Positions 37,414 through 46,097 of a stretch of 64,000 nucleotides of DNA are shown piece after piece (within the stretch, counting starts at the first letter, position 1; each line of letters starts with the position of its first letter). The translations under genes and the position numbers were made by a program. The notes below the pieces were generated by a model. That model worked only from the letters and a program-made list of their open reading frames with translations. It made no database searches and was not told the DNA's origin. The DNA is from Arthrobacter tumbae (lineage in GTDB: Bacteria > Actinomycetota > Actinomycetes > Actinomycetales > Micrococcaceae), in the NCBI RefSeq assembly GCF_016907495.1, contig NZ_JAFBCC010000001.1:620001-684000 (forward strand). Direction: 5' to 3'.

Positions 37414-37466
37414 AGTGGCAGATGAGGGATTCGAACCCCCGTAGGCTGTGCCAGCTGATTTACAGT
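37414..37466. repeat. attL: 53-bp direct repeat containing the tRNA-Tyr 3' half
   Basis: Identical base for base to 44748-44800. It includes the T-arm, variable arm and 3' anticodon stem of tRNA-Tyr but not the 5' half, so no functional tRNA is encoded here. Confidence 0.93.
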
Positions 37467-37505
37467 TGCCGCTTCCGAGTTATCAGCTGTAGCCGGGAAT
37501 AGCCT

Positions 37506-37550
37506 GGAGCGCTGAGTTTCTGCGGATTTTCCGTAAGGGCTCAGCGCTCC
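37506..37550. other. Inverted repeat GGAGCGCTGAG / CTCAGCGCTCC inside attL end
   Basis: Perfect 11-bp arms at 37506-37516 and 37540-37550 lie between the attL core and the candidate integrase arm sites. It could be a terminator protecting the cargo gene from outside transcription, or a binding site used in recombination. Confidence 0.5.
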
Positions 37551-37583
37551 TGTTATCCCCTGTAGTCCCGTTTGAGCACCTTT

Positions 37584-37605
37584 TCCCCCACAAATCCCCC
37601 ACAAA
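37584..37605 (+). repeat. Candidate integrase arm sites, left pair
   Basis: TCCCCCACAAA occurs twice in direct tandem (37584-37594, 37595-37605), about 120 bp inside attL. The same motif occurs as a pair near attR. Such paired repeats are typical of integrase arm-type binding sites. Confidence 0.55.
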
Positions 37606-37731
37606 ATCCTGCACGTCCTGATAGCCCTTTGGCGGTGCGTACAAGCCCTCTCGCAGGCGGGTCACGTCTTCGCTGCGCCGAGCGGGCCAGCCACAAAACG
37701 GGAACGGGCTTTCACTGTCGCGCGGGTAGGA

Positions 37732-37737
37732 AATACT
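37732..37737 (+). promoter_or_regulatory. -10 element of a leaderless promoter for the cargo gene
   Basis: AATACT is followed by six bases and the ATG at 37744. The region is clearly more AT-rich than the host chromosome. Confidence 0.45.
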
Positions 37738-37743
37738 GTCCCA

Positions 37744-39195
37744 ATGGGGAAAGCCGAAGAGCGAGTGATTCGCTCCTATCTACGCCGTATCGAAACTCTT
37801 GCCAAGGGAAGCTCCAAGCGCGGTTTCTTAGCCGAGGGGCTGCAGTCCTTCATTGATCATCAATCGCAAGTCGCCGAGCTACAGCGGGACATCCAGCGAG
37901 AAATAGCTGCAGTGAAACCCAAAGCAAGGCGGGACAGAGCGCTAATTGCTCACTTGCGGGAGCTGCGAGTCGTGCGCTGGCACTCCCGGAGAGTCGGAGA
38001 CGGTCTGGCTTGGCGGGTGTTACTTCACGACAAGCAAGCCATCTATGCACTGGGCAAAAACGCGCGCGTCCCTTTGGCCCCAAAAGAGGACGATGGAAGC
38101 CGTGGGGTAGGAATCTCAGCCGCGAATTTCTTGAATGAGGGCTGGGGACTGCCCATCATCCATGACATAACGGACTGTCTCCGCATAGGAGATCTGACCC
38201 TACTCTCGTTTGGCGACGACTCCAGTGAACGGTTCTTTCGCACGTTGGAAATAAAAACGACGCGCATCTCGCAAACCGAAGGGGACGACGGTTCAGTGTC
38301 TCTTGACCTGCGAGTTTCCGCGATTGGAACGGAGTCCTTTCCGGAGGTCTCGGCCCGCCCTATTCCCGAGTTGAAAGCGTCTCCTATCCCCCAGGACACT
38401 AACGCTTCTACCCAGAAACGCAGGGAAGACCGCCGTATCCCCAAGCAGTTCGAGCGAATGGTCGAAGCAGTCGCCTACCGCACTGCGGAAGCCGACAAAG
38501 TGAATAAGATCGGCGACACTTTGCACTTGGCTCTTGAGGCCGATTACGAGGAAAAACCACACTGGGCCGAGCTGAGACGAACCATTCGCGAAGCACGGCG
38601 AGAGGGCTTCTCGTACTTCTCGATCGATGAGTTCGTCGGGTACGGCATCTGGTATAACGCTCAAGGATTGGAGCCGGGGGACGTCAAGAAGTACGACCTC
38701 AACACGCGTATCCAACAGAGCATCGTCAAGGAGGCGCTAGGAGAACGTAACCGCCTCACAATCCAGCAGATCCCTATAGCCGAGGACAATGAGTTCGCCC
38801 GATTCGTGCTTCCGTTCACTGCATACGACATCCCTCATAGAGCTATCTCCGACATGCTGCACGGCCGATTGTTGATCGCGGCTTTCGTGAATACGGGAGT
38901 GATCGAGCAGGCGCTTGAGGGAGCGGGGTTCACCGTCTTGAGACGCCCGGGGAAGGACGACCCGCGATCATTCACACTACGCGGTGAGCTTCACTGGCCA
39001 ACGGGCGAAGCAATCTGGACGGAGATCCCCGCACCTTGGGTAGAGATCTGGTCGGCCGTTCATGAGTTCCTGGCGCTGGAAAGCATCATCTCGAAGTCTT
39101 CTACCATCCTTGCCCTGCCGACCAAGATCCCCTTCGAAGATTTCTCACCTGAGAAGCTCGAAGCTTCCATGGCAGGCGAAGAGGTCAGTTCCTAG
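37744..39195 (+). CDS. Cargo protein of unknown function with PD-(D/E)XK-like motif
   Basis: This 483-residue soluble protein is the only rightward gene at the attL end and is distinctly lower in GC than both the host and the rest of the element. Residues 141-171 (from DITDCLRIGDLTLLSFG to RTLEIK) place Asp150 about 19 residues before Glu169-Ile-Lys171, with strand-like residues around both. This is the spacing of PD-(D/E)XK nucleases. A charged, helical N-terminus (about 1-80) and a mixed C-terminal domain without known motif complete it. Position, composition and motif suggest an anti-phage or nuclease cargo gene. This is inference; no family was recognised. It has its own leaderless-type promoter and a hairpin at its stop codon. 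Confidence 0.6.
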   Translation: MGKAEERVIRSYLRRIETLAKGSSKRGFLAEGLQSFIDHQSQVAELQRDIQREIAAVKPKARRDRALIAHLRELRVVRWHSRRVGDGLAWRVLLHDKQAIYALGKNARVPLAPKEDDGSRGVGISAANFLNEGWGLPIIHDITDCLRIGDLTLLSFGDDSSERFFRTLEIKTTRISQTEGDDGSVSLDLRVSAIGTESFPEVSARPIPELKASPIPQDTNASTQKRREDRRIPKQFERMVEAVAYRTAEADKVNKIGDTLHLALEADYEEKPHWAELRRTIREARREGFSYFSIDEFVGYGIWYNAQGLEPGDVKKYDLNTRIQQSIVKEALGERNRLTIQQIPIAEDNEFARFVLPFTAYDIPHRAISDMLHGRLLIAAFVNTGVIEQALEGAGFTVLRRPGKDDPRSFTLRGELHWPTGEAIWTEIPAPWVEIWSAVHEFLALESIISKSSTILALPTKIPFEDFSPEKLEASMAGEEVSS

Positions 39196-39209
39196 AACTG
39201 ACCTCTTCG
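39177..39209. terminator. Perfect 15-bp hairpin spanning the stop codon of the cargo gene
   Basis: CGAAGAGGTCAGTTC (39177-39191) pairs fully with 39195-39209, leaving a three-base loop that contains part of the TAG stop. It lies between convergent genes and could terminate both transcripts. There is no long T-tract on either side. Confidence 0.55.
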
Positions 39210-39306
39210 AGTCATCGCTTTCCTTCCGGCCATCGTCCGCAGGCTGCCTTACGCGTTCCTCACAGACGTACCGGCTCTCCCAGTGCCCGGGCAGGATCCC
39301 AACGGC

Positions 39307-39672
39307 TCACAGGTGCCTTTCCCGCTGCAGCTGCTCGAACAGCGCCAGCGCGTCCGGGTGCTTGTGCTCCTGCCATCCGTAGACCCGGAACCGCTCCCGG
39401 GTGGGTGACATCAGCGCGCGGACCTCGACCTGTACGGACTCCACGATCTCGCGGCCCTGCAGCACGTCCAACGCGAGGCTTGCAACTCTCATCAGGGTGA
39501 AAGCGGCTTTAGCCTGTACCGCGTCCCCACGGATCGAGTCCCAGGACTCCAACGCGGCCACGGTCAGCCTGCCAAGCTCTCCCAACTCGGCCATGCTCGG
39601 CCCGGAACTGTCACCGTGCAGGATCTCGTTCCGGGCTTCCAGCACCCGCAACCTCCGCTCGACGTCGCTCAT
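39307..39672 (-). CDS. Hypothetical protein (121 aa), last gene of the element's leftward operon
   Basis: This soluble, mostly helical protein (starts MSDVERRLRVLEARNE) has no recognised domain. Its ATG overlaps the stop of the TerS-like gene (ATGA), so the two are translated together. It ends about 100 bp from the convergent cargo gene. It may work with the TerS-like protein, since small packaging genes of phages often come in pairs, but nothing in the sequence proves this. Confidence 0.6.
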   Translation of the reverse strand: MSDVERRLRVLEARNEILHGDSSGPSMAELGELGRLTVAALESWDSIRGDAVQAKAAFTLMRVASLALDVLQGREIVESVQVEVRALMSPTRERFRVYGWQEHKHPDALALFEQLQRERHL

Positions 39673-40055
39673 GGTTCGGCCCTCCGCTCAAGGTCGGCCA
39701 GCCGTGCCTCAATGTCGTCATCCCGGATCTTCAACCCGACTTCCAACAGTCTCGACGCGGCCCGGACCTGAGTTGCAGGGCTCTCCGCTGACAGACCCGC
39801 TCGGAGCACCCGCACGGCCTCTTTCTGCGCCATCCGCAGATCATCCAGCGCTTCACCGTTCAACTCGCGTGACTGCTGCCGGTAAGCCTCCCTGAACGGC
39901 TCGGAAGCGAACCATCGGCGCACGGTCGATTCAGCTACCCCTACACGCTCGGCGGCTTCCTTTGTGCTGCCGACGACGGCGAGCGCGGCCAGTGCGGCCT
40001 CCTGTTTTCGCGATAACCGCGCATTTCTGTCGTTTCCGCTCACGTTTGCCGCCAT
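39669..40055 (-). CDS. HTH protein resembling a phage terminase small subunit
   Basis: The 128-residue protein has an N-terminal helix-turn-helix: LSRKQEAALAALAVVGSTKEAAERVGVAESTVRRWF (in part, STKEAAERVGVAESTVRRWF). This is followed by SEPFREAYRQQSRELN and a helical C-terminus. The layout is that of small terminase subunits of the phBC6A51 type, which recognise phage DNA for packaging. No large terminase gene is present. Phage-inducible islands use a lone TerS to redirect a helper phage's packaging, and that would fit here. A simple DNA-binding regulator is the alternative. Confidence 0.55.
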   Translation of the reverse strand: MAANVSGNDRNARLSRKQEAALAALAVVGSTKEAAERVGVAESTVRRWFASEPFREAYRQQSRELNGEALDDLRMAQKEAVRVLRAGLSAESPATQVRAASRLLEVGLKIRDDDIEARLADLERRAEP

Positions 40056-40723
40056 GTCCCGCCCTGACTTTTGTCCTGACTCCTGCGGAACGCTTCCCGT
40101 TCGCCCCGGTCGGCGGCTTCCTTATCCCGCGCGCTGGTCGGCGGGAGCGGCGCGGGTGCCAGCGGATCCGTTCCGGCTGCGAGTGCCTGCAAGTCCGGGA
40201 CGCCGATACTTGACCGCATCCGGGACGCCTCCCCGTTCAGGAGACGAACACCCTTGACCCGTTCATCTGCCAGCCGTGCATCGGAGAGCAGACGGCGCCA
40301 GTCCCCTACCTCCACCGCGAGAGCTTCCAACGGTTTCAGCGCTTCCTCTGTCCTCCGCGTGAGGGTTTCCCTGGCTTCCTGCCATCGGCTCTCGATCATG
40401 AGCTTCTGGTGTCCCAGCATCTTCTCGGCGCGATCATGCGCTGCGGTTCGGGCCTCGTGCAGCCGGTGAAGTAGCTGCTGCAGCTGGGCGATGCTCTCCC
40501 GCTCCGGGCGCGGCGGTTCCGGCCGGTACTCGGCGCGAGCCTCCGCACAGTCGACCTGCCAACGGTCGAGCTTGACGTCATGCTCAGCGTCCAACCGGCT
40601 GATCTCCTCCCGGGTTTCCCGGTCAACCTCTGCCAGCCGCTCAAGCTCGGCCGTGACCTCCGCGACGATCTCAGCGCGTAGCTCCTCCGCTGTCGGCGGC
40701 TTCGGCTTCCTCGCGGTGCTCAT
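40040..40723 (-). CDS. Coiled-coil protein of the element (227 aa)
   Basis: The first 170 residues are highly charged, rich in Glu, Arg and Ala and without proline breaks, and look like long coiled coils (EIVAEVTAELERLAEVDRET). The C-terminal 50 residues are Pro/Ala-rich, then basic. No enzyme motif is seen. It overlaps the TerS-like gene by 16 bases and the upstream gene by four, so it is part of the tightly packed leftward operon. Coiled-coil proteins of this type are common in phage early and packaging regions, with no defined role. Confidence 0.6.
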   Translation of the reverse strand: MSTARKPKPPTAEELRAEIVAEVTAELERLAEVDRETREEISRLDAEHDVKLDRWQVDCAEARAEYRPEPPRPERESIAQLQQLLHRLHEARTAAHDRAEKMLGHQKLMIESRWQEARETLTRRTEEALKPLEALAVEVGDWRRLLSDARLADERVKGVRLLNGEASRMRSSIGVPDLQALAAGTDPLAPAPLPPTSARDKEAADRGEREAFRRSQDKSQGGTWRQT

Positions 40724-41016
40724 CGCTCACCGTCCAAGAACCGCTGCCGTTCAAGCTTCCTGTCAGCAGCAGAATCCCGCGTCGATTCCCGCTCCTCCTG
40801 GACTCTCTTCCCGCCCAACGCTTCAAGCCGGTTCACTTCGACCTGACGTTCGGCTACCTCCTCGATCCTCCGCAACCGCTGTTTCTGTGCGGGTGTCCCG
40901 TTCAACTCGACCCGGATCCATGCGGCCCGATCCCGGCGCGGGTCATCGAGCCGTGCCACCGCGTGCAACATGTCCGTCAAGATCTCGTCACACTGCCGTT
41001 CTACCGTGCTGCTCAT
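40720..41016 (-). CDS. Small charged protein of the element (98 aa)
   Basis: This hydrophilic protein is rich in Arg and Glu (RAAWIRVELNGTPAQKQRLRRIEE), probably helical, with no known motif. ATG 41016 is chosen because AAAGGA lies upstream and because it overlaps the stop of the previous gene (ATGA). It also overlaps the start of the coiled-coil gene by four bases. It is part of the leftward operon of the element. Confidence 0.55.
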   Translation of the reverse strand: MSSTVERQCDEILTDMLHAVARLDDPRRDRAAWIRVELNGTPAQKQRLRRIEEVAERQVEVNRLEALGGKRVQEERESTRDSAADRKLERQRFLDGER

Positions 41017-41240
41017 TTCGTCATTCCTTTCTGGTCTACCTTGAGAGCACCGAACTTGCTTTCCGCGCGGCACACAAGCTCCCCCACGGCGCGGATCTGA
41101 TCGATGGAGCCATGGACCTCCACAGAGCGCCTCAACGCGTTCAGCGGCCCGGACTTACGGATGTCCCGGCCACGCTTCGACGCTGCTTGAAGCTCCCCGA
41201 TCCGATCATCCATGGACATATCCCGGCTGTAGTCGCTCAT
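41013..41240 (-). CDS. Small protein of the element (75 aa)
   Basis: The hydrophilic protein starts MSDYSRDMSMDDRIGEL and overlaps both neighbours by four bases. Its middle part (SVEVHGSIDQIRAVGELVCRAESKFG) resembles the end of the next upstream small protein (AVAVEGHPDQVADLNTLIGVAERRFG). The two genes are probably tandem paralogues. Function unknown. Confidence 0.55.
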   Translation of the reverse strand: MSDYSRDMSMDDRIGELQAASKRGRDIRKSGPLNALRRSVEVHGSIDQIRAVGELVCRAESKFGALKVDQKGMTK

Positions 41241-41467
41241 GCTGCGCCTCCCTCGGGGGTAGTACCGAACCGGCGCTCAGCAACGCCGATAAGGGTGTTC
41301 AGGTCGGCCACCTGATCCGGGTGACCCTCAACGGCAACGGCGTCCATGGCGGCTTTCAAGCCCGGATTGACGCGGGGATCCCGCTGATTGAGGAACGCAG
41401 CCCGTACCCGGTCGAGAGTCTGCGCACTCCGGCGATGTTCCTCTAGTGATGTCCAGCTGATTTTCAT
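41237..41467 (-). CDS. Small protein of the element (76 aa), paralogue of its neighbour
   Basis: ATG 41467 is selected because AGGAGG lies seven bases upstream. The protein is soluble and shares the pattern V-x-V-x-G-x-x-D-Q-x-x-x-L/V with the following 75-residue protein, including a closing AERRFG versus AESKFG. It overlaps both neighbouring genes by four bases in the leftward operon. No function can be assigned. Confidence 0.55.
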   Translation of the reverse strand: MKISWTSLEEHRRSAQTLDRVRAAFLNQRDPRVNPGLKAAMDAVAVEGHPDQVADLNTLIGVAERRFGTTPEGGAA

Positions 41468-41775
41468 GATGTGCCTCCTAAGGCGTTTGTTCCCCAGTCC
41501 GGGGAATCGGTGGTTTCGTGCTTGGTCAGTGCTCGGCATGGGACGCAGAAGTCCGGGCGGGGCGTCACCGGGTGCGAGTTACAGCCCGGACCCGGGAGAG
41601 GGATGAACCGGATCTCGTGGCACGTCTTGTAGTTCAGCCACGCCTCATCCCGCGAGCGCGAGTAACCCTCTGGGAACCCGTTCCGGTCATGGCAGGCATC
41701 ACAAGTCGGACGACCATCAGCGGCCAGCCCCTCACACCCGTCAGTCACACAAGGGAACCCATCCATGAAAGCCAT
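41464..41775 (-). CDS. Cys-rich zinc-finger-like protein of the element (103 aa)
   Basis: Cysteines are arranged as CVTDGC and CDACHDRNGF in the N-terminal part and FCVPC near the C-terminus, suggesting one or two zinc-binding sites. Such short Zn-ribbon or HNH-like proteins are frequent in actinophage genomes. An HNH nuclease signature is not complete here. ATG 41775 overlaps the stop of the replication-initiator-like gene. The first clear Cys pair lies seven residues after this start. Confidence 0.6.
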   Translation of the reverse strand: MAFMDGFPCVTDGCEGLAADGRPTCDACHDRNGFPEGYSRSRDEAWLNYKTCHEIRFIPLPGPGCNSHPVTPRPDFCVPCRALTKHETTDSPDWGTNALGGTS

Positions 41776-42431
41776 CAGGCAGCCCTCCAACCCGGGAACG
41801 CGGACCCCCACCACTTGACCGCCTCGGCTTCATCCATCCCGCGAGCCTCTGCAAGCTCAGCCGGTGACGTGATGCCGTTGCCCTCGATCCACTGCCGAAC
41901 CTGCAACGCTTTCCCGTCCTCCGGATACGCGAAACTTTCAGGTTCAGCCTGTTGTCCTTGCAGCTTGCTCTTGCTCTTGCTCTTGCCTTTACCGTCCGAC
42001 ACGACTTCCGACCCGATGTCCGACTCGATGTCCGACCGGACATCCGACTCGATGTCCGACCGGACATCCGACCGACTGTCGGGCACGACATCCGGTCCCT
42101 TGCCCTGCGCCCTGACCTTCGCTTTGTACTCGCGGTCATTCCGGCGCTTCCGCTCCAACCGCTCAATCTCCGCGCTGCTGGTCTGTGTGCTGTCGAAGTC
42201 CTGGATAGTCCAACCGCTGCCTGATACCCGCCATAAGCCAGCGCTGACCAGTGCAGCCGCTTCCCTTGCCGTTGCGGACGGGATCAGCGGAAGGTCTGCG
42301 CCGTCGATGAGCCCGTCAGTTCTGTTGGTGACGCTCCATGCCGTCGCCATTACCCACATTCGAAATTGGTCGCCGCTCAATCTCAAAACTCGCCGGTCTG
42401 TCAGATATCGAACCGGGAATCTTGCGTCCAT
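41775..42431 (-). CDS. Replication-initiator-like phage protein with SD-repeat linker (218 aa)
   Basis: The N-terminal 75 residues (MDARFPVRYLTDRRVLRLSG, then FRMWVMATAWSVTNRTDGLI) match the start of actinophage proteins annotated as replication initiators or replisome organisers with a winged-helix fold. A linker of repeated four-residue units (SDVR, SDIE, SDVR, SDIE, SDIG) and a Lys/Ser run separates it from a small helical C-terminal domain (about 165-218). The repeats are encoded by 12-bp iterated DNA that may serve as an origin. It is the first large gene of the leftward operon and would drive autonomous replication after excision. Confidence 0.55.
   Translation of the reverse strand: MDARFPVRYLTDRRVLRLSGDQFRMWVMATAWSVTNRTDGLIDGADLPLIPSATAREAAALVSAGLWRVSGSGWTIQDFDSTQTSSAEIERLERKRRNDREYKAKVRAQGKGPDVVPDSRSDVRSDIESDVRSDIESDIGSEVVSDGKGKSKSKSKLQGQQAEPESFAYPEDGKALQVRQWIEGNGITSPAELAEARGMDEAEAVKWWGSAFPGWRAA
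42005..42076. repeat. 12-bp tandem repeats inside the replication-initiator-like gene
   Basis: Six consecutive 12-bp units share the core TCCGAC. A 24-bp block is repeated exactly (42021-42044 and 42045-42068), and each copy contains the inverted repeat GATGTCCG-AC-CGGACATC. The DNA encodes the SDxx linker, but it also has the form of origin iterons. Confidence 0.75.
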
Positions 42432-42453
42432 TCGAAGTGCTCCCTTTCCGCTG

Positions 42454-42696
42454 TTAGTCGTTGCTGATCGGCTGTGATTGATCGAGCCCGAGCACTCGCA
42501 GCAGACCCGGCTTAGGTACTCGGATCACCCGGCCCAGGCGGACCACTGGACAGGGAAACTCCCCAGCTTTTACGAGCCTGTACCCCGTGACCCGTGAGAT
42601 CCCCAACGCCTTGCACGCCGCCTCCAGGTCCATCGACGGTGGCAGGGCCAGCACTTCCTCCGAAGTCATCGCTTCATCCCTCTCTTGGCTTGTCAT
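42454..42696 (-). CDS. Excisionase-like small HTH protein
   Basis: The 80-residue protein has a MerR/excisionase-type helix-turn-helix, MDLEAACKALGISRVTGYRLVKAG, followed by a wing VVRLGRVIRVPKPGLLRVLG. Small proteins of this type bend DNA for excision or repress early promoters. It is divergent from the gene preceding the integrase and next to a 30-bp palindrome that could be its operator. ATG 42696 would be leaderless (CACAAT six bases upstream). ATG 42669, with GAGAGGG at good distance, is an alternative that would shorten it to 71 residues. Confidence 0.7.
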   Translation of the reverse strand: MTSQERDEAMTSEEVLALPPSMDLEAACKALGISRVTGYRLVKAGEFPCPVVRLGRVIRVPKPGLLRVLGLDQSQPISND

Positions 42697-42705
42697 GCCT
42701 CCATT

Positions 42706-42735
42706 GTGTACGTATTGATCTTTCAAGACGTACAC
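42706..42735. promoter_or_regulatory. 30-bp nested palindrome between divergent element promoters
   Basis: Outer arms GTGTACGT (42706-42713) and ACGTACAC (42728-42735) and inner arms TTGA (42715-42718) and TCAA (42723-42726) share one centre. It covers the promoter area of the excisionase-like gene and lies 47 bp before the divergent gene, the expected place for the element's repressor operator. Confidence 0.65.
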
Positions 42736-42782
42736 TTAGAGGCGTACAAGTAATTCGGGAACCGGATATACGGCAGGGAGCA

Positions 42783-43424
42783 ATGGAGACATTCACCATC
42801 ACCACATCGTTCGGAGGCGCGAAAGGCGTAACCGGGCAACGGTTCCGGGGGATAGCGAAGCCTCCCGAGTGGTCAGACCCGGAAATGAGGAAGTGGCTGC
42901 TGCAAGGGGTGAAGTACGACATCCACGAGCCCGACCCCTGGCTTGCACAGATCACTTGGGAAGTCGGGGACGGGGAAGCGCGCCCCATTCGTTTCGAAGT
43001 GCGAGGGCGCAACGGTCAGTCAATAGATCCCGCGCAGACGTTCCGGGGGATGGCAACGGTTATCGCGAACTCCCGCCTCCAGTTGGGCTACCTGCATGAC
43101 GCACTGGCAAACCTCTGGGAATCGCACGGGTACTCCAAGCCCGCCGCCTTCACGCGGAGACAGGTACCGAAGTCCACGCGCGGGAACGCAACCCTCCCGG
43201 AAGGCCACTTCCCTTTGGTTGCGGCGCTCTACACCGAGTATCGCGACGAGCCGGCTGTGCATAATCCGGTGCAAGCCGTCGCCGCGCAGCTGCTCAAGTT
43301 CAAGGATTACGAGAACGAAGCCAACGGCGATCAAAAGTCGTGGCTCAACCGCGTGAATACGTGGGTCAACAGAGCGAAGAAAATGGGGCTCGTCCCTCCG
43401 GCGAAAGGAAAGAACGATGGCTAA
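42783..43424 (+). CDS. Hypothetical protein encoded upstream of the integrase (213 aa)
   Basis: The protein is soluble, with no recognised domain. The N-terminal half is beta-rich (TFTITTSFGGAKGVTG, ITWEVGDGEARPIRFEV) and the C-terminal half is helical (HNPVQAVAAQLLKFKDYENEA). It ends eight bases inside the integrase gene, so the two are expressed together from the promoter region with the palindrome. GGGAG lies very close to the ATG, so initiation may be near-leaderless (TATACG about 10 bases upstream). It could be a recombination or replication accessory protein. That is only a guess from position. Confidence 0.55.
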   Translation: METFTITTSFGGAKGVTGQRFRGIAKPPEWSDPEMRKWLLQGVKYDIHEPDPWLAQITWEVGDGEARPIRFEVRGRNGQSIDPAQTFRGMATVIANSRLQLGYLHDALANLWESHGYSKPAAFTRRQVPKSTRGNATLPEGHFPLVAALYTEYRDEPAVHNPVQAVAAQLLKFKDYENEANGDQKSWLNRVNTWVNRAKKMGLVPPAKGKNDG

Positions 43425-44643
43425 GCAACAAGGCGTTTATCAGCGGTGTGAGGCGGGTTGCCCTGCCCGGTGCAAGCGGCACAAGTGGGCGTTCCAGGTG
43501 GAGTTCCCACCCGGCCCGGACGGGAAGCGGCTGCGGGTTCGGGAGTCCGGGTTCCCCGACGCTGCGACCGCGAAGGATGCCCGGGACGCTGCGGTCAAGG
43601 CGTACAAGCTCGGGACTCTGGAAACGGACCGCAGGAAGGAAACCACGGGCGCTTACCTGACCCGCTGGCTGGAAGCGAAAGAAACCGCGCGGACGATCCG
43701 GCCCGCCACGATCAAAAGCTATCGCGGGCATCTGACTAACTACCTGCTCCCCAACATCGGACGGGTGCGGCTCACCGATCTGAAAGCGGCCGACATAGAC
43801 GGGATGCTGGTCAGGATCCGGAAGGCCAACGCGGACAAGCCACCCAATCAGCAGGTCAGCGCCTCTACAGAGCGCAGGATCGTTGCCACGTTGCGTTCCG
43901 CAGTCCGCGATGCCCTCCGGACGGGTCAGCTACACCGAGACCCCACCATAGGCGCACACGTGGCAAAGGAAGCCGGGGAACGTAGGGACGTGTGGACGCC
44001 GGAACAGTTCGCCCGGTTCCGGTCATGGATGGAAGTCCAGGCTGAGGGCGGCACGGGTAACAGCCACGTCGAGCGGCTGGCTCCGCTGGTGCTGTTCGCG
44101 GTCGGGACGGGTATGCGGCTCGGGGAAGTATGCGGGCTCCGCTGGTCGGATGTTGACCTGGACGCCGGTCACCTAACCGTCCGACAACAGGCGCAGCTGC
44201 AGGGCCGGGAGATCCGGTTCCAGCCCGTAAAGACGAAAGCGGGCCAGGATCGTTGGGTGCCTGTCGCGGGATGGGTTCCGGATGTCCTCAAGGCATGGAA
44301 GGCGCAGCAGGGCCGGGAACGTCTCGTGGCTGGTGAGGCATGGAGCAACGGGCAAGGGCTGGTATTCACGGATGCTCTGGGATTCCCACTGAATCCGAAC
44401 AACGTGTCCAAGACGTTCGGGAGGATGGCCGAACGTGCTGGACTCCCGAAAGTTGTGTTTCACAGCCTCCGGCACTTGGCCGCGACGATCATGCTGCAGA
44501 ACGGTCTGCCGCTCCCCGTCGTGTCCCGGATCCTCGGCCACTCGACCATCACAGTTACCGCTGACCTGTATTTCGACGTGGTGAAGGACAAGCGCCTGAA
44601 CGACGACGTGAGCGCCGCCTACGCGAGGGCTTTTAGCGCCTGA
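43417..44643 (+). CDS. int: Tyrosine site-specific integrase
   Basis: This 408-residue tyrosine recombinase carries the catalytic set Arg234 (GTGMRLGEVCGLRW), Lys273, His349-x-x-Arg352 (HSLRHLAATIML), His375 (ILGHSTITV) and nucleophile Tyr385 (TADLYFD). The N-terminal arm-binding part has a Cys/His cluster (CEAGCPARCKRHKW), and the core-binding domain spans about 75-185. AAAGGAAAG precedes the ATG. The gene ends about 10 bp before the candidate right arm sites and 105 bp from attR, the normal place for an integrase that targets a tRNA gene. It should recombine at the tRNA-Tyr anticodon region. Confidence 0.95.
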   Translation: MAKQQGVYQRCEAGCPARCKRHKWAFQVEFPPGPDGKRLRVRESGFPDAATAKDARDAAVKAYKLGTLETDRRKETTGAYLTRWLEAKETARTIRPATIKSYRGHLTNYLLPNIGRVRLTDLKAADIDGMLVRIRKANADKPPNQQVSASTERRIVATLRSAVRDALRTGQLHRDPTIGAHVAKEAGERRDVWTPEQFARFRSWMEVQAEGGTGNSHVERLAPLVLFAVGTGMRLGEVCGLRWSDVDLDAGHLTVRQQAQLQGREIRFQPVKTKAGQDRWVPVAGWVPDVLKAWKAQQGRERLVAGEAWSNGQGLVFTDALGFPLNPNNVSKTFGRMAERAGLPKVVFHSLRHLAATIMLQNGLPLPVVSRILGHSTITVTADLYFDVVKDKRLNDDVSAAYARAFSA

Positions 44644-44653
44644 TCCGGACGCA

Positions 44654-44676
44654 TCCCCCACAATTTCCCCCACAAG
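44654..44676 (+). repeat. Candidate integrase arm sites, right pair
   Basis: TCCCCCACAAT (44654-44664) and TCCCCCACAAG (44666-44676) repeat the motif found in tandem near attL, in the same orientation. They lie just after the integrase stop and about 72 bp from the attR repeat. Confidence 0.55.
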
Positions 44677-44688
44677 AGGGCAAGAAAG

Positions 44689-44726
44689 AAGCCCGCCCGA
44701 ACCTCCGAAGAGATTCGAACGGGCTT
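44689..44726 (-). terminator. Terminator supplied by the element downstream of tRNA-Tyr
   Basis: Arms AAGCCCG (44689-44695) and CGGGCTT (44720-44726), with an inner CGAA/TTCG pair, form a hairpin. On the minus strand it is followed by a T-rich stretch (CTTTCTTG). It lies just downstream of tRNA-Tyr and could also end integrase transcription from the other side. Confidence 0.6.
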
Positions 44727-44747
44727 ACTTCCCCGTGATACCGGCGA

Positions 44748-44800
44748 AGTGGCAGATGAGGGATTCGAACCCCCGTAGGCTGTGCCAGCTGATTTACAGT
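44748..44800. repeat. attR: 53-bp direct repeat within the intact tRNA-Tyr gene
   Basis: Identical to attL at 37414-37466. Identity stops inside the anticodon arm, so crossover must fall within this block. Confidence 0.93.
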
Positions 44801-44831
44801 CAGCCCCCTTTGGCCGCTCGGGTAATCTGCC
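44750..44831 (-). tRNA. tRNA-Tyr (GTA), element integration target
   Basis: This class II tRNA of 82 nt has acceptor GGCAGAT, anticodon loop CTGTAAA (anticodon GTA), a long variable arm and T-arm GGGGGTTCGAATCCCTC, with discriminator A. CCA is not encoded. The 3' part is the attR repeat, so integration has rebuilt an intact gene. An 8-bp hairpin (CCTGCGGA/TCCGCAGG, 44868-44889) lies in its upstream region. Confidence 0.95.
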
Positions 44832-45921: not shown

Positions 45922-45945
45922 AACAAACCGTCCCAGTGGATCACG

Positions 45946-45983
45946 GGTTTCACTGGGAATGTCTAGACATTCCCAGTGAAACC
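45946..45983. repeat. 38-bp perfect palindrome
   Basis: The 19-bp half GGTTTCACTGGGAATGTCT is followed directly by its exact complement, with no spacer. A third copy of the arm core (TCCCAGTG) at 45931-45938 can pair with CACTGGGA at 45951-45958, so alternative hairpins are possible. It lies between convergent yajQ and htpX. Confidence 0.93.
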
Positions 45984-46000
45984 GGCGATTCGGTGGGACG

Positions 46001-46097
46001 GTGCGGCGGGATACGACGGGGTACGACGGGATCCGGCGGGATACGACGGGATACGACGGGGTGCGGCGGGATCCGGCGGGATCGGCGGGATCCGGCG
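46001..46097. repeat. 10-bp tandem repeat array, nearly ten units
   Basis: Units such as ATACGACGGG, ATCCGGCGGG and GTGCGGCGGG follow each other without gaps (one unit is 9 bp). The consensus is RTNCGRCGGG. The array ends 12 bp from the htpX stop. The period is close to one helical turn and is not a multiple of three, so coding is unlikely. Confidence 0.9.

Follow-up and report, generated by a model that had tools for sequence, protein, structure and literature searches.

The DNA considered here, which we call the window, is a stretch of 64,000 nucleotides from Arthrobacter tumbae (contig NZ_JAFBCC010000001.1, positions 620,001 to 684,000). At window positions 37414-44800 it harbours a compact element inserted in a tRNA-Tyr gene. 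The limits of the element are two 53-bp copies, attL and attR (Table 1), 7,334 bp apart and identical, an exact match that was checked again. ARAGORN calls a sole tRNA-Tyr (gta) in the window (44749-44831, minus strand), which remains intact at the right end of the element, and calls no tRNA at the left copy. This agrees with an initial annotation made from the sequence, which had placed the right block in an intact tRNA-Tyr beside a tyrosine integrase and had seen in the left block a lone tRNA 3' half. The G+C content of the element is 61.5%, against 65.2% in the rest of the window; that of its cargo gene is 56.6%.

The site without the element is found in another genome of the same genus (G299, locus L030), where the right flank, the tRNA-Tyr gene and the left-flank gene adjoin. 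When the window flanks were joined with one att copy and compared with this locus, the alignment was gapless across att; some 10 bases left of att there is a single-base indel, and some 200 bases right of it similarity ends. The flank gene yajQ is present in 29 of the 30 same-genus genomes searched, window host included. Among the 28 others, five have the left-flank thioredoxin gene at most 0.6 kb from the tRNA (L030, L031, L038, L039 and L044), L030 being the one that was aligned through the junction. In 22, a reach of 1.5 kb from the tRNA shows no left-flank marker, and the last one (G256, loci L029/L063) has a different element at this tRNA, described below. A lack of empty alleles in all relatives would have spoken against the initial annotation; L030 is such an allele.

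Genes of the element

Twelve main open reading frames (ORFs) occupy the element, every one open from ATG to stop. The cargo gene runs rightward from attL. A compact leftward run comprises the genes of an excisionase-like protein (Xis), of a replication initiator (Rep) and of a cysteine-rich protein, three small genes, then p227, the gene of the terminase small subunit (TerS) and p121. At the right side p213 and the integrase gene (int), which overlap by 8 nt, are read rightward. All twelve were run against Pfam and PHROGs. Interpretable matches are limited to Int, Xis, Rep and TerS, the four functions that the initial annotation had named; the other ORFs gave either none or weak ones that miss the Pfam cut-off. 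Neither a conjugation family nor a credible virion family was matched, again as first proposed: there is no match to capsid, portal or terminase large subunit (TerL) genes, and, besides the TerS families, the only virion-type line comes from TerS itself, which weakly matches a tape-measure family (E 0.03). PADLOC, run on ten of the ORFs (Xis and Int left out), returned nothing convincing, and at the DNA level the element resembles no phage record.

A degenerate actinomycete integrative conjugative element (AICE) of the pSAM2 type would also use a tRNA gene and carry Int, Xis and Rep. Yet the Pfam search of the twelve ORFs matched neither a relaxase nor an FtsK/TraB-type transfer ATPase, by which AICEs and integrative conjugative or mobilizable elements are recognized, and neither TerS nor p227 is known from AICEs. 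Such an origin is disfavoured, and scarcely probable at all.

Table 1. Features of the element, in window positions.
Feature	Position	Strand	Evidence or remarks
attL	37414..37466		53-bp copy of the tRNA-Tyr 3' part, without the tRNA 5' half
Hairpin	37506..37550		11-bp perfect arms, 37506-37516 / 37540-37550 (checked); between attL and arm sites
Left pair of TCCCCCACAA repeats	37584..37605	+	candidate integrase arm-type sites
Cargo gene, 483 aa	37744..39195	+	no Pfam, PHROG or PADLOC match
p121, gene after TerS	39307..39672	-	homologues next to TerS in L008, L009, L010
TerS, 128 aa	39669..40055	-	terminase-small-subunit family matches, satellite-phage relatives, predicted fold
p227, all-helical, before TerS	40040..40723	-	present in 6/6 elements
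p98, small gene overlapping p227	40720..41016	-	ORF checked; no BLAST match in relatives
p75, small gene	41013..41240	-	ORF checked; related stretch in L008, 45% over 60 aa
p76, small gene	41237..41467	-	ORF in operon order; no Pfam or PHROG match
Cysteine-rich protein, 103 aa	41464..41775	-	ORF; possibly zinc-binding (by eye); no Pfam or PHROG match
Rep, replication initiator, 218 aa	41775..42431	-	phrog_3926 E 9e-17, phrog_2447 E 1e-16
12/24-bp repeats (iterons) inside rep	41993..42094		Tandem Repeats Finder score 114; reached by 0/200 codon shuffles
Xis/AlpA-like helix-turn-helix protein, 80 aa	42454..42696	-	HTH_17 E 1e-7; excisionase families phrog_66, phrog_12527
8-bp inverted repeat between divergent xis and p213	42706..42735		possible operator; reached by 19/1000 shuffles
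p213	42783..43424	+	8-nt overlap with int start; homologues in L009, L010 (30%)
Int, tyrosine integrase, 408 aa	43417..44643	+	PF00589 E 4e-27
Right pair of TCCCCCACAA repeats	44654..44675	+	candidate integrase arm-type sites
attR	44748..44800		53-bp copy completing the intact tRNA-Tyr

The predicted small terminase gene and a family of six elements

The key gene of the element is that of TerS, with a packaging role predicted from its sequence. The match of TerS to phrog_7344 (E 2e-6) aligns residues 11-123, that is, nearly the full protein, beyond its helix-turn-helix (HTH). A search of 50,697 phage records gave 24 named matches, all of them Streptococcus satellite phages (30-34% identity, records of 6.5-14.7 kb), and phage small terminases are the top-ranked structural rows for the predicted fold, with modest scores. 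The sequence scores of TerS are modest as well. Its HTH also matches regulator families, in PADLOC its single line comes from a weakly matching HTH (mad1, E 0.001), and a TerS profile run against PDB sequences retrieved artificial alphaRep proteins best, with small terminases only at E 0.04-0.2, among regulators. The alphaRep matches are taken to reflect helix-repeat composition.

TerS scans of genome samples that overlap in part had matches in 5 of 395 genomes of the family (own included, one dropped), in 3 of 396 of the order (own included) and in 1 of 394 of the class (own only). The dropped family match (L007), 30% identical inside a 923-aa frame at E 5e-6, was left out of the relatives. 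The five relatives measure 4.9-7.4 kb, come from four further genera, including two of other families, and are each flanked by direct repeats. Two sit in tRNA-Tyr: L009 in Arthrobacter sp. Leaf69 (7.25 kb, 52-bp repeats) and L010, probably in Paenarthrobacter sp. GOM3 (7.40 kb, 53-bp repeats). L008, in Arthrobacter sp. H14 (5.66 kb), has 28-bp repeats of 96% identity, one of them at the 3' end of what we take to be glnA; L026, from another family (5.41 kb), uses tRNA-Arg, with 62-bp repeats of 98%, and L027, in Rarobacter incanus (4.88 kb), tRNA-Pro, with 50-bp repeats of 96%.

In all five, the genes for an integrase, for p227 and for TerS are present, and the general gene order is the same. 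TerS is common to them by construction, since they were found through it; independent of that search are the direct repeats, the integrase and p227 (by BLAST), present in all five. Xis is found by BLAST in four, and L008 has in its place a small ORF that looks HTH-like by eye. ORFs of similar size occupy the places of p121 and p213 in L026 and L027. Beside the Rarobacter element lies a second island (L027:1907-8875), flanked on both sides by that element's tRNA-Pro repeat (the outer copy at 82%); it carries HamA with a helicase, presumably a Hachiman-like system, and an AbiEi/AbiEii pair.

Could the element be what is left of a larger prophage after the loss of its virion genes? The different element of about 7.8 kb at the same tRNA-Tyr in G256, of the same genus (L063:1119-8989), gives some substance to this idea, with its integrase, second recombinase, HTH protein and single major capsid gene (PF05065). 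The site, then, can receive elements of different kinds. Yet neither TerS nor p227 of the window finds a match in the G256 element, and its integrase is 25% identical to the window Int, so that it does not mark the window element as the decayed prophage against which the initial annotation had cautioned. Moreover, six elements in five genera keep the same short plan, in 4.9-7.4 kb, with open reading frames, and phage records similar in DNA are lacking. We disfavour this explanation as very improbable.

p227 adjoins TerS in all six elements. A structure model with a pLDDT of 83 folds it into three long helices, for which fold comparison gave nothing specific; among phage and plasmid records the protein has no match. 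In a collection of 5.8 billion proteins, 23 homologues, query included, were found among the best 7,997 scored candidates; the five with an organism name come from Arthrobacter, Paenarthrobacter or Pseudarthrobacter. Homologues of p227 or TerS are also encoded on metagenome contigs of 7.5-7.8 kb (proteins P0009, P0010, P0027 and P0030). Homologues of p121 exist in four of the six elements, that of the window counted, with none at E 1e-3 in L026 and L027, and here too no phage record matches. p227 and p121 are probably the most novel part of the element. p227 may be a scaffold, a terminase adaptor or an anti-TerS protein.

The absence of p227, p121 and the element DNA from phage records also fits a small integrative plasmid-like element, moved by transformation, passive transduction or conjugative mobilization. 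Int, Xis and Rep are also the core of integrative plasmids, and the TerS-like protein would then be an HTH regulator, as its modest scores and its matches to regulator families would allow. Against this stand an alignment to phrog_7344 that spans more than the HTH, the fact that the nearest named relatives of TerS among phage records are satellite phages, the small terminases that head the structural rows, and the lack of any conjugation or relaxase family matched in Pfam or PHROGs. We hold this alternative to be unlikely.

IMG/VR gave no relative with p227, Int or the single TerS sequence, and one match with the TerS profile (L058), confined to HTH residues 14-48; besides the TerS-like HTH gene, this contig (L058:576-5307) has a recombinase, an intein-like ORF and one of 566 aa that resembles, by eye, a large terminase. 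Among GTDB contigs the profile found 12 loci, two of which, L011 (H14) and L012 (Leaf69), were already among the relatives. The ten others, on contigs of metagenome-assembled genomes (MAGs; seven with Chloroflexota-type names, two Deltaproteobacteria, one Reyranella), were dropped, having no p227 or Xis at E 1e-3 and no integrase except in L014. There, at the end of a deltaproteobacterial MAG contig (L014:2733-8583), two TerS-like stretches accompany a tyrosine integrase; this may be a satellite-like element outside actinobacteria.

Integration, control and replication

The integrase is 81-82% identical to those of the tRNA-Tyr elements L009 and L010. The two pairs of TCCCCCACAA repeats are probable arm-type sites for it, as their sequence suggests. 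Exact matches in the 64 kb are limited to these four; with one mismatch there are nine, against 4.2 expected, a number reached by 4 of 100 shuffles. Repeats of the TCCCC(C/A)ACAA type lie on both arms of all three tRNA-Tyr elements, clear in the window and in L010 (a degenerate pattern matches 4 times, against 0.05 expected), less exact in L009 (11 matches with at most two mismatches against 5.0 expected). At the place of the hairpin both tRNA-Tyr relatives have, by eye, a hairpin of different sequence, which suggests a conserved structure, terminator or boundary.

Xis is 61-62% identical to its counterparts in L009 and L010, and 44-45% in L026 and L027; its Phage_AlpA match is below cut-off. 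An inverted repeat similar to that between xis and p213 exists in L027 (reached by 30 of 1000 shuffles), and not in the other four elements. p213 has no family match, and no homologue at E 1e-3 in L026 and L027. In all six elements int and the gene preceding it share 4 or 8 nt, and in L008 that preceding gene encodes a repressor-like HTH protein. As the gene just before int is needed for excision in the phage-inducible chromosomal minimalist islands (PICMIs) presented in PMC10803314, p213 may, by analogy, be an excision or switch protein.

Rep matches 53 phage records, all with actinobacterial hosts by name, none of them covering more than 80% of the protein. The iterons within its gene are a probable origin of replication, as far as sequence can tell. 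Rep types differ between elements: in five of the six, rep matches PHROGs of replication initiators, which in three cases are O-like families. Tandem repeats lie inside rep in the elements, with a repeat unit different in each. Their score is unmatched by 200 codon shuffles in five of the six; in L026 it is reached by 24 of 200, three spaced copies being visible. This is reminiscent of phage lambda, where the origin lies within the initiator gene O.

The cargo protein has a D...EIK motif, noticed by eye, which weakly suggests a PD-(D/E)XK nuclease. Compared with solved structures it has no match (best E 0.19). A homologue 53% identical stands at the same place in L009, and a scan of 197 family genomes found the gene in its own genome only, the genome of L009 not being among the matches listed. 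For the small gene before p227, a forced alignment was rejected as support for homology: by BLAST its L008 row matches p75 instead. Outside the element, between the chromosomal yajQ and a putative M48 protease gene (named by eye), window positions 45927-46092 hold a 38-nt inverted repeat followed by repeats with a 10-bp period.

A probable phage satellite and its place among known satellites

The locus thus carries a 7.3-kb unit in tRNA-Tyr which leaves the tRNA whole, has an empty allele in a relative and follows a gene plan that recurs in five elements. From TerS and the recurrent architecture of the six elements we conclude that it is likely an integrated phage satellite, compact, capsid-less and TerS-encoding, presumably packaged by an incoming helper phage. 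The initial proposal of a phage satellite or similar element is supported on the same grounds, helper packaging being our deduction. The host genome has no match to TerL PF03354, portal PF04860, capsid PF05065 or Terminase_3 PF04466, and a helper from outside is therefore likely; in the six element-bearing genomes PF04466 is found in none and PF03354 in one (G035).

Upon infection by the helper, the divergent Xis/p213 switch would open the left operon, and Int with Xis, acting through the paired arm sites, would excise the element. Rep would bind its intragenic iterons and replicate it. TerS would then capture the large terminase of the helper and mark satellite DNA for packaging into helper-made heads, a step that p227 and p121 would assist. 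The particle would deliver the element for integration in a new tRNA-Tyr, while the cargo gene next to attL would probably give an advantage to host or satellite, for example against rival phages.

Phage-inducible chromosomal islands (PICIs), among them the Staphylococcus aureus pathogenicity islands (SaPIs), and the streptococcal satellite phages offer the closest parallel: a site-specific integrase, a Xis or regulator, an own initiator with repeats, a TerS homologue, an accessory gene and no virion genes. The host, by contrast, is here an actinobacterium, the size is 4.9-7.4 kb against 6.5-14.7 kb in the 24 streptococcal records, p227 and p121 match no phage record, and neither a known Stl-type repressor nor a capsid-size gene was recognized in the window element. 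Of the traits that define TerS-type PICIs, we find the integrase with att direct repeats, the lack of structural genes, rep with a predicted origin and, by similarity, the TerS homologue. The PICI regulator is of Stl or AlpA type; here there is the Xis/AlpA-like HTH protein, together with p213, for which no family is matched. As for capsid-size redirection, typical of many but not all PICIs, the all-helical p227 has no specific match. Some PICIs have a TerS homologue, others use the pac or cos of the helper (PMC6092414). The twelve ORFs match none of the capsid, portal and TerL genes that a capsid-forming PICI owns.

PICMIs of Vibrionaceae are likewise very small, with an AlpA-type gene, a gene overlapping int by a few nucleotides and no capsid-remodelling genes, and they depend on a virulent phage as helper rather than on a resident prophage (PMC10803314). 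The main text of that article, where a primase and integration at fis served to identify them, nowhere uses the word terminase. The family of the window element differs by its non-primase initiator, its tRNA or glnA sites and its TerS: no primase (DUF3987/DUF5906) match was seen in Pfam, and the site in the window is tRNA-Tyr.

Closer to Arthrobacter, the Mycobacterium candidate PICIs and the Mulch and Flayer satellites of Streptomyces are actinobacterial, some of them in tRNA genes (PMC10654092, PMC10690885); the latter depend on a helper and the former are presumed to do so. Both carry capsid genes, in contrast to the window element, without capsid, portal or TerL matches. The Mycobacterium candidates are defined by integrase plus capsid (PMC10654092), and the text on the Streptomyces satellites, which have capsid genes, also mentions predicted PICIs of Actinomycetota (PMC10690885). 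Actinobacterial elements below 15 kb could be satellites according to PMC10023795, in the consulted text of which the word Arthrobacter does not occur. Titles and abstract beginnings retrieved in a literature search described no TerS-only actinobacterial satellite, earlier computational detection (SatelliteFinder) being possible.

A bolder reading, which we put forward tentatively and with somewhat less than even confidence, is that these elements form a separate lineage of minimal actinobacterial satellites. p227, joined by p121 in part of the family, would be a new helper-takeover module around TerS (size-setting scaffold, terminase adaptor or blocker of the helper TerS), rep, iterons and cargo would be freely exchanged, and the same core would invade tRNA-Tyr, tRNA-Arg, tRNA-Pro and glnA.

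If the satellite interpretation is true, a TerS-only family going down to 5 kb extends the SaPI packaging strategy to actinobacteria, where the described Streptomyces satellites and Mycobacterium candidates, as far as their accounts were consulted, carry capsid genes of their own. p227 and p121 would be new candidates for the means by which a satellite gains control of its helper. Because the gene plan recurs, the satellite idea can be put to the test in named strains, Arthrobacter sp. Leaf69 among them.
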